Shown here one piece after another: positions 25,305-27,677 of a DNA stretch of 59,948 bases. The DNA lies in contig JAUVXD010000011.1 of assembly GCA_030603805.1 (NCBI GenBank), positions 1-59,948 on the forward strand. The letters are read 5' to 3'. The notes beneath the pieces were generated by a model, which searched no databases, was not told where the DNA came from, and was given only the letters and a program-made list of their open reading frames with translations. Position numbers and translations under genes: made by a program. Numbering within the stretch: position 1 is the stretch's first letter; each line of letters begins with the position of its first letter. The DNA is from Acholeplasmataceae bacterium (GTDB lineage Bacteria > Bacillota_I > Bacilli_A > Acholeplasmatales > Acholeplasmataceae).

Positions 25305-25328
25305 AAAACCGCTTAATTAAGCGGTTTT
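25305..25328. terminator. Perfect palindromic terminator between convergent genes
   Basis: AAAACCGCTTAA/TTAAGCGGTTTT is a perfect 24-base palindrome covering the end of hflX. It can work for both the hydrolase gene and hflX. Confidence 0.8.
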
Positions 25329-26576
25329 ATTGTTCTTATCAATGAGATAATTCTTATAAAGCTCTGTTTGATCAGGTGTTAATATCACCTTAACATACGT
25401 ACCATCTTCTTCATATCTAGTTTCAAGCACTGTATTGTTTTCTTTAATCTTAGAAAATATTTGTCCTTGATCAAATGGAATTCTGAGTAACTGAATCCTA
25501 TTTTGTTTGTAGAGATGTCCATAAATGGCATCAACTAACACATCAATGTTTTCATTGGTTCGATTGGATACAAAAATATAATCTTCATGAACAGGGGGTT
25601 GCATCAATGCAATCTCCTTTTTTGTAAGGACTAATAATCTTTCAATATGATCGGCACCAATTTCGGTGAGTACCGCTCTTGTTGTATCAATTTGAAGGGG
25701 ATTAAAATAAGCTCCATCAACCACATGAATGAGTAAGTCTGCTTGAACGACATCACTTAAGGTAGACTCAAATGAGCGAATCAGTTCATGAGGTAGCTTG
25801 CTGACAAATCCAACGGTATCAATTAAGATAAAGGGTGGATGATTTTCTTTTTGTAATCTTTTCGCTTTCGTATCGAGTGTAGCAAAAAGCATATCTTTTT
25901 CTAAAACAGGTTCTGAATCGTGATGTAAATATCTAGAAAGTGAATTCATTAAAGACGATTTACCTGCATTGGTGTAACCCACTAAGGCAACCACTGGTAT
26001 TTGATTTTTCATTCTTTTTTGTCTAGAAATTTGTCTTTCGGATTTGATCTTTTCAAGCTCTTTTTTGATGAAACTAATTTCATTAACAAGTTTTCTTCGA
26101 TCGAGTTCTAGTTTGGTTTCACCAGGTCCCTTCGCATTGTATGAACCTCCACCTTGTCTAGAAAGTGAGTTACCCATACCAACAAGTCTGGGTAGTAAAT
26201 ACATTTTTTGAGCAAGTGAGACTTCTAAGACGGCTTCTCTACTTTGTGCTCTTTCTGCGAAAATCGATAAGATGAGAAAGCTGCGATCGATGATCTGAAC
26301 TTCAAGTTCTTTTTCTAAGTTTTTGATTTGTGCAGGAGATAGTGTATCATCAAAAATAACGATATCGATATCTAAAACTGCAATCATGGTTTTAATCTCT
26401 TGAACTTTACCCGAACCAATATAAAATCTGGGTGTAATTTGTTTGGCGTTTTGGACGACTTTGTCCTTTGTTTTAATACCTAGAGCATCTGCCAAATGCT
26501 CGAGTTCGATGAGTGAGTTCATCGTTTCCTCAGTGGTCTCTTTATAACTGAGTCCGACTAATATTGCTTGATCCAT
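25317..26576 (-). CDS. hflX: Ribosome-associated GTPase HflX
   Basis: HflX binds the 50S subunit and splits stalled ribosomes; the HflXr branch gives macrolide/lincosamide resistance in Listeria. This 419-residue protein has the N-terminal HflX domain with the glycine-rich GNSLSRQGGGSYNAKGPGE linker, G1 GYTNAGKSS and G3 DTVGF. G4 reads TKKE instead of the usual NKxD, a visible departure. A longer frame begins at a TTG (26615) inside a leader hairpin. The ATG at 26576 has AGAGG five bases upstream and the standard MDQAILVGL start. A long structured leader with a small ORF precedes it. Confidence 0.93.
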   Translation of the reverse strand: MDQAILVGLSYKETTEETMNSLIELEHLADALGIKTKDKVVQNAKQITPRFYIGSGKVQEIKTMIAVLDIDIVIFDDTLSPAQIKNLEKELEVQIIDRSFLILSIFAERAQSREAVLEVSLAQKMYLLPRLVGMGNSLSRQGGGSYNAKGPGETKLELDRRKLVNEISFIKKELEKIKSERQISRQKRMKNQIPVVALVGYTNAGKSSLMNSLSRYLHHDSEPVLEKDMLFATLDTKAKRLQKENHPPFILIDTVGFVSKLPHELIRSFESTLSDVVQADLLIHVVDGAYFNPLQIDTTRAVLTEIGADHIERLLVLTKKEIALMQPPVHEDYIFVSNRTNENIDVLVDAIYGHLYKQNRIQLLRIPFDQGQIFSKIKENNTVLETRYEEDGTYVKVILTPDQTELYKNYLIDKNNKTA

Positions 26577-26785
26577 ATATACCTCTTTATGTGCAACCAA
26601 AATGGTTGAGGACAATCCTAAGTTGTCTTAAATATATGCACAAACGTGCAACGTCTCGTCAAATGACCATAAGATGTTGCCACTGGATCATTAAAATGAT
26701 TTGGGCAACTTAAGCTTGGTTTAAATGTCTAAGTTTAATATACATGATGAACCCTCCTTGAGTTGCTGAAGTAGTAGTTATCAGC
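26577..26785 (-). promoter_or_regulatory. Structured hflX leader, candidate ribosome-stalling switch
   Basis: About 210 bases separate the predicted transcription start from the hflX ATG. In transcript order: a TGCTGA/TCAGCA hairpin, an 11-codon ORF (26745-26710), then five segments that can pair alternately. They are 1 GTTGCC (26709-26704), 2 GGCAAC (26681-26676), 3 GTTGCAC (26652-26646), 4 GTGCA (26641-26637) and 5 TGCAC (26595-26591). Pairings 1:2, 3:4 and 4:5 exclude 2:3 or each other. Helices GACAA/TTGTC and CAACC/GGTTG lie between 4 and 5. CCTC at 26611-26608 can pair with GAGG of the hflX SD. There is no strong U tract, so control of translation seems likelier than termination. Confidence 0.6.
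26710..26745 (-). CDS. hflX leader peptide, 11 residues
   Basis: ATG to TAA encodes MYIKLRHLNQA. AAGGAGG lies 7 bases from the ATG, the best ribosome-binding site in this stretch. The peptide has a K-L-R (+X+) motif at residues 4-6, the type that arrests ribosomes in the presence of macrolides in Erm-type leaders (ErmDL, as I recall it, also has R-L-R and ends LNQ). The first switch segment begins one base after the stop codon. Confidence 0.6.
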   Translation of the reverse strand: MYIKLRHLNQA

Positions 26786-26791
26786 AGTTCT

Positions 26792-26820
26792 ATTATAGAC
26801 TTTATCTCTCTTTTATACAA
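26792..26820 (-). promoter_or_regulatory. Promoter of the hflX leader
   Basis: The minus strand reads TTGTAT (26820-26815), 17 bases, TATAAT (26797-26792). The predicted start is near 26785, about 40 bases before the leader ORF. Confidence 0.65.
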
Positions 26821-26930: not shown

Positions 26931-27677
26931 ATGATTTATAATATACCAATCTGGAAGTTTATCGTTGATCTTTATATCGTATGGGTCTTAGTCTTTTTCT
27001 TAGTCAAATTTTTACTATCGAATAAGAGAATGCTTTCGATTGCCACATCTTTTTTATTTGTTTATTTATTAAGTTATGTGGCCAATCTTTTTGAGTTCCC
27101 CATTACATCCCCTATATTAACTTATGTCGTTGAATGGATGCCTATTTTAATCATTATCATCATGGCCCCCGATATTAGAAGATCACTTGAGATGGTTTGG
27201 AAAGCAGATACGAGAAACGAATTGGTTGTCATGGGTAGCGAGAAAACTAAACAAGCGATTGTTGATGCTGCTATGTATTTATCAAGCCAACAAATTGGTG
27301 CACTGATGACCATTGAAAAGCATAACACTTTAGATCAATACGCTGAACGTGCGATTACGATGAATAGTGAAGTCTCTAAAGAGATTTTGATTAATATTTT
27401 TACCCCAAATACACCACTTCATGATGGTGCAGTCATTATCCGCGGGGATTCGATTTTATGTGCTGGTGCTTATTTTGTGTTATCCGATAACCAAAACTTT
27501 GATAAGACGATGGGTTCTAGACATCGTGCAGGACTTGGTATTAGTGAAATTACAGATAGCTTAACCATCATTGTTTCAGAAGAAACAGGTAGTGTGTCTA
27601 TTGCTGTTGAAGGTATTATGCTTAAGATTAATGATCGAGACAAGTTAATGGAATACATTAACATGTTCATGAAGTGA
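26931..27677 (+). CDS. cdaA: Diadenylate cyclase CdaA
   Basis: CdaA joins two ATP molecules into the second messenger c-di-AMP, which controls potassium and osmolyte balance in Firmicutes and Mollicutes. Three N-terminal membrane helices (within residues 1-75) precede the DAC domain. DAC signature residues are present: D165-G-A167 in LHDGAVII and R197-H-R199 in SRHRAGLGISE. The 248 residues fit the short CdaA class. The usual Firmicutes partners cdaR and glmM do not follow; instead a 59-residue membrane protein and a PAS/GGDEF-like protein do. Confidence 0.95.
   Translation: MIYNIPIWKFIVDLYIVWVLVFFLVKFLLSNKRMLSIATSFLFVYLLSYVANLFEFPITSPILTYVVEWMPILIIIIMAPDIRRSLEMVWKADTRNELVVMGSEKTKQAIVDAAMYLSSQQIGALMTIEKHNTLDQYAERAITMNSEVSKEILINIFTPNTPLHDGAVIIRGDSILCAGAYFVLSDNQNFDKTMGSRHRAGLGISEITDSLTIIVSEETGSVSIAVEGIMLKINDRDKLMEYINMFMK

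Follow-up and report, generated by a model that had tools for sequence, protein, structure and literature searches.

The closest characterised leader upstream of an hflX-family gene is rli80 of Listeria monocytogenes, which precedes hflXr (lmo0762), encodes a 14-residue peptide with an RLR motif and acts by transcription attenuation, with a demonstrated response to lincomycin and erythromycin (PMC6310831). A second family, uORFC-6-1, is found upstream of hflX mostly in Bacillales and has a conserved Arg-Leu-Arg and co-varying structure, and control of transcription has been suggested for it (PMC8632094). Thus, +X+ hflX leaders are already known outside the Mollicutes (PMC6310831, PMC8632094). 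In Acholeplasma, a leader ORF upstream of aroF, uORFC-13-1, has been described as having a terminator stem and as acting on aroF in a manner resembling attenuation (PMC8632094). Our search of the literature, for which most subscription journals lay outside coverage, found no description of an hflX leader from Acholeplasma or Mollicutes.

The locus examined here lies in a window of 59,948 nucleotides from an Acholeplasmataceae bacterium, and combines features of these systems. As in rli80, a short +X+ leader ORF precedes an hflX-family gene and is followed by what appear to be mutually exclusive RNA structures; but where Listeria has a terminator and an additional copy of hflX, we find no terminator shared among leaders, a single hflX copy and predicted sequestration of the start codon, and K-L-R is confined to part of the leaders, whose peptides are variable. 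The combination of a leader ORF with co-varying structure before hflX is likewise that of uORFC-6-1, although its conserved Arg-Leu-Arg has no counterpart across our set, in which K-L-R occurs in 10 of 25 leaders and other sequences in the remaining 15. With Erm-type +X+ attenuators (e.g., ErmDL) the locus shares a +X+ peptide and, by prediction, start-site sequestration; it differs in that the stall site is clear of the first arm and that loss of the first helix (P1, see below) is predicted to close the gene. The aroF element is a leader-ORF attenuator candidate from the same bacterial group, and differs in the gene that it precedes. What we describe is therefore the same gene as in the known hflX leaders, with partly the same kind of leader peptide and a different switch layout. 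We interpret it as a translation attenuator, in which ribosomes on the short leader ORF set hflX output, and put the probability of this reading at roughly one half, or slightly above (about 0.52).

The regulated gene, hflX (25317-26576, minus strand), encodes a 419-residue ribosome-splitting GTPase matching TIGR03156 at 386 bits (cut-off 216.75), and since this is the one match above the cut-off in the 2.06-Mb source genome, there is no second copy. Its divergent neighbour (26931-27677, plus strand) resembles, by eye, a membrane diadenylate cyclase of the CdaA type. Among relatives, the hflX match at G016:C132:4404-5496 (leaders L024 and L033) is split into residues 1-247 and 316-416, possibly through a frameshift, a deletion or an assembly error. 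The gene seems to have been lost in genus g21, whose genomes are reduced (0.3-0.9 Mb): no hflX match was found in 28 of its 29 genomes, and the remaining one has only a weak GTPase-like match.

All elements of the window's leader lie on the minus strand. The first of them is a promoter (26792-26820), read directly from the sequence: TTGTAT (26820-26815) is separated by 17 nt from a perfect TATAAT (26797-26792). The 17-spaced promoter of the initial annotation holds as regards the -10 box, whose distance to the ORF recurs in all leaders, but its -35 box is weak, with just 3 of 6 positions matching the consensus, which is why the promoter is missing from the promoter-scan list. A 5' hairpin, GCTGA...TCAGC (26765-26785), precedes the leader Shine-Dalgarno sequence (SD), and inspection by eye showed similar hairpins in most of the other leaders. 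The SD itself, AAGGAGGG (26752-26759), was read directly, and is of the GGAGG type in 25 of 25 leaders. It precedes an 11-codon ORF that looks translated, MYIKLRHLNQA* (26710-26745), in which K-L-R occupies codons 4-6 (26736-26728). Immediately 3' of the stop codon lies strand 1, GTTGCC (26704-26709), and beyond it strand 2, TGATCCAGTGGCAAC (26676-26690), which contains GGCAAC (26681-26676) and can partner either strand 1 (forming P1) or the hflX start region (forming helix S). A GTTGCAC segment at 26652-26646 overlaps a middle hairpin, TTGCACGTTTGTGCA (26637-26651), which is weakly terminator-like and contains GTGCA (26641-26637). The 5' portion of the start region is another GTTGCAC (26591-26597), predicted to pair with GGCAAC in the closed state (the fold of lowest energy when a ribosome occupies the leader stop); its TGCAC (26595-26591) sits just upstream of the hflX SD, AAAGAGG (26582-26588, read directly). 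Finally, TGGATCA (26569-26575) spans the start codon and codons 2-3 of hflX and is the complement of TGATCCA in strand 2. Every element that the initial annotation had named, i.e., a leader ORF with a strong SD and segments for alternative helices upstream of hflX, is thus present.

Folded alone, the window's leader has only a modest advantage over its shuffles (z -1.5), and because such a value from a single leader is weak evidence, our case rests on comparison with relatives. For this leader, strand 1 is also predicted to pair, in competition with strand 2, with bases of the 5' region (26766-26758), a point against the switch proposed below. Searching the window against Rfam at E up to 5 returned no match of note, only a chance match on the opposite strand.

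The genus sample comprised 20 genomes, 19 with hflX, and yielded 18 full-length leaders, in all of which a -10 box of the TATAAT type and an SD of the GGAGG type accompany an ORF 11-16 codons long. A family survey revealed the same layout in two sister genera, g23 (L066 MSNQLFNLNH, L067 MSNQLYNLFD) and g20 (L068-L072: MNINLILSNL, MNISKLRKILSI, MNINPLGLNI, MNISKLRITLSI and MNINKLRLTQ), which rules out a leader restricted to the source genus. In total, an SD and a leader ORF of 10-16 codons, with a TATAAT-type -10 box upstream, occur in 25 of 25 full-length leaders from three genera (18 from the source genus, two from g23 and five from g20). The initial annotation had named absence of the small ORF and pairing from relatives as grounds for abandoning its proposal; both are kept. 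About 30-45 nt upstream of hflX, 3' of the leader hairpin, the g20 and g23 leaders (L066-L072) also have in common GCAGTTTG (GCAGATTG in L071).

Beyond these three, the genera examined by eye and by scan across the family, order and class had no such leader except at two loci, L020, with a possible short leader ORF (MINKTVSNI), and L117, with MRLRR. The latter (around 1368-1482 of G232:C77) belongs to another family of the same class, in a genome with two hflX copies, one of which has the MRLRR leader, with a GGAGG SD, 112 nt upstream. This ORF is followed by complementary stretches, ACGCGGATCA and TGATTCCGTG, and by TCCTTTAA, which is complementary to the start region TTTAAAGGA. We regard MRLRR as a separate +X+ hflX leader.

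In a MAFFT alignment of all leaders, the groups could not be aligned downstream of the ORF, and pairing was therefore evaluated by comparing cognate with permuted partners. Taking one leader per group, since leaders within groups are non-independent, cognate pairing of strands 1 and 2 came to -11.74 kcal/mol as against -8.20 +/- 0.67 for permuted partners, and none of 20,000 permutations was as good. In duplex searches, strand 1 (stop codon to +14) and the hflX start region proved to share a partner, the best antisense to the latter lying in the segment that pairs with the former: strand 2 is common to both pairings in 15 of 18 leaders, whereas 4.07 are expected from dinucleotide-keeping shuffles, a count that includes several non-independent leaders per group. 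A control stretch of hflX, from +10 to +31, had no such enrichment (mean z of +0.2 vs. -1.0). Strand 1 changes completely among leaders, and the GATCC of strand 2 is near-invariant, being almost the sole conserved sequence past the ORF. This core faces ATGGATC of hflX, with variants GATTC (L015), AATCC (L024), GTACC (L006) and TTGGTT (L010); in L006, where GATCC is altered, hflX begins with ATGGACC. The g23 leaders have GATCCAT opposite ATGGATC. Those of g20 have a GCTC/GAGC stem 3' of the stop codon and no clear antisense of the start region, and our mechanism may therefore not extend to them. The shared strand 2, the co-variation and the predicted pairing together argue for the mutually exclusive helices that had been proposed to control the hflX start.

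The conserved complementarity to the start codon also bears on whether the leader might work by transcription attenuation, as in rli80, with stalled ribosomes preventing an intrinsic terminator from forming. This is how the closest characterised hflX leader operates (PMC6310831), and hairpins with U stretches occur in L006 and L007 (GGGAGACC..GGGTCTTTTTATTTT) and in L008 and L009, with a weak hairpin and U residues in the window (TGCACGTTTGTGCA TATATTTAAG). Such an explanation is nevertheless unlikely: a transcription switch has no need of the part that is conserved, and no terminator-like hairpin is common to all leaders, the window offering only the weak hairpin with its tail. In L006 and L007, GGGAGACCATACAAGGGTCTTTTTATTTT resembles an intrinsic terminator followed by an anti-terminator arm, a feature that the other groups lack.

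The leading edge of a ribosome lies 15-16 nt beyond its P site. With Leu5 in the P site, this edge falls near nucleotide 28 of the ORF, which is 36 nt long, and stops about 7 nt short of strand 1, whose first base is nucleotide 37. That is the position anticipated for +X+ arrest, which places X (here Leu) in the P site (PMC8298421). The initial annotation had proposed Erm-type attenuation, in which the stalled ribosome occupies the first arm, so that the first hairpin is broken and the hflX start freed. K-L-R is indeed a +X+ motif, and alternative helices exist; but the stalled ribosome would not mask the first arm, the footprint with Leu in the P site ending upstream of strand 1 in ten of ten K-L-R leaders, and breaking P1 favours closing of the start region, not opening. 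We regard this version of the switch as improbable. 

We propose instead that strand 1 would pair with strand 2 (P1), leaving the hflX start free. A ribosome arriving at the leader stop codon would cover strand 1 and block P1, and the freed strand 2 would then engage the hflX start region, with GATCC pairing to GGAUC alongside an anti-SD part, and close hflX. A ribosome held early, be it by a macrolide or ketolide at K-L-R or, where K-L-R is lacking, at some other early codon, would bar later ribosomes from the stop codon, such that P1 would persist and hflX be made; because the ribosome stalled at K-L-R stops short of strand 1, P1 could form alongside it. Since P1 may reform fast once a ribosome leaves, the closed state would require frequent leader translation or slow refolding. 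We infer this direction, with stop-codon arrival closing and early stalling opening hflX, from thermodynamics, in a model where ribosomes are represented as masks at equilibrium and co-transcriptional folding plays no part, all structures being predicted. When the stop-codon footprint is masked in this model, mean P1 falls from 0.48 to 0.01 and S rises from 0.14 to 0.34. On average, a ribosome at the stop codon makes the start region 1.12 kcal/mol dearer to open than one held early does (0.32 +/- 0.19 in post-ORF shuffles), in a comparison that again takes in several non-independent leaders per group.

Comparison among relatives supports the translation attenuator, in that the ORF is conserved, strand 2 is common to both pairings, strands 1 and 2 co-vary and K-L-R is retained as peptide; counting against it, the free-energy effect is small and uneven among leaders. 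For the window's own leader, the opening cost changes by +0.8 to +1.1 kcal/mol when the ribosome is at the stop codon instead of stalled early. The effect is strong in L014, L015, L016, L017, L066 and L067, close to zero or of opposite sign in group A (L003, L005, L019), L006, L010 and L018, and absent in g20, where the start region is mostly open. The mean unpaired fraction of the start region barely differs between the two states (0.51 vs. 0.48). Presumably the leader responds to drugs and acts on translation rather than on transcription or mRNA stability. Were its main action on stability, the message would be protected by a ribosome stalled close to the 5' end, together with the 5' hairpin. 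Most leaders have both a 5' hairpin and a 5'-proximal ORF, and there is a precedent in erm, whose expression can reportedly follow mRNA stability (PMC5118997); but this would leave the complementarity between strand 2 and the hflX start, and the co-variation of strands 1 and 2, unexplained, and we consider it the most doubtful of the alternatives.

The reading of K-L-R as a +X+ motif in the initial annotation is supported by its conservation in 10 of the 25 leaders. The motif occurs in two genera, in three of the five g20 leaders (L069, L071, L072) and in the source genus in L002, L003, L004, L005, L019, L008 and L009, i.e., 7 of 18 leaders, so that it is not genus-wide; the comparison of relatives thus bears out the compensatory pairs, with strands 1 and 2 co-varying, but finds K-L-R in part of the leaders only. 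Among carriers, Leu-Arg is spelled in seven ways (CTT AGA, TTG CGT, CTG CGT, CTA CGA, TTA AGA, CTA AGA and CTG AGA), although these leaders were picked for having K-L-R and the count of synonymous changes alone is no test. Because residues downstream vary freely while K-L-R is retained through these spellings, the motif looks to be selected at the level of the peptide. Pooled over close pairs, leader ORFs have a pS of 0.32 and a pN of 0.20, a weak sign of coding constraint. The HflX tree is poorly resolved as to a single or multiple origin of K-L-R, and scanning the genus for additional leader ORFs with K-L-R yielded none among the 12 matches checked, all of which were starts of long proteins.

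The other 15 leaders encode unrelated peptides, several of them rich in Ser and Thr (L012 MSTTLSYSGNR, L015 MSIDLSNSYTH, L016 MSTSNTTSDNR, L024 MSTKETTLSTSVVH). A Ser/Thr-rich nascent peptide context favours arrest by chloramphenicol, and the peptide of L016 resembles the phenicol leader of cmlA, which we take to be MSTSKNADK. With so many leaders lacking K-L-R, the element could be a general sensor of slow or failed translation (e.g., starvation, heat or low ribosome supply), with no particular antibiotic as its signal and K-L-R as one hold among several. HflX is a general rescue factor, and a switch governed by arrival at the stop codon works with any early block; but two genera keep K-L-R despite synonymous changes, a sign that the signal in those lineages is specific to the peptide, and we hold this explanation only tentatively. 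Equally tentative is a reading of the leader as responsive to both drugs and stress, working by arrival instead of by stalling at a set place, so that a ribosome at the stop codon closes hflX and any early block opens it. Such a design would explain why leader length, stop position and strand 2 are kept despite drift of the peptide among K-L-R, Ser/Thr-rich and other forms, and, if it is correct, the same RNA frame could be adapted to different inhibitors.

If the translation attenuator is real, ribosome-controlled hflX leaders would extend to the Mollicutes. The 25 related leaders form a natural series in which the peptide changes and much of the RNA logic is kept, making them useful for studying the evolution of arrest peptides. 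And since HflX is here a single-copy housekeeping protein, its control in this manner would suggest that the stall itself tunes the rescue of stalled ribosomes.
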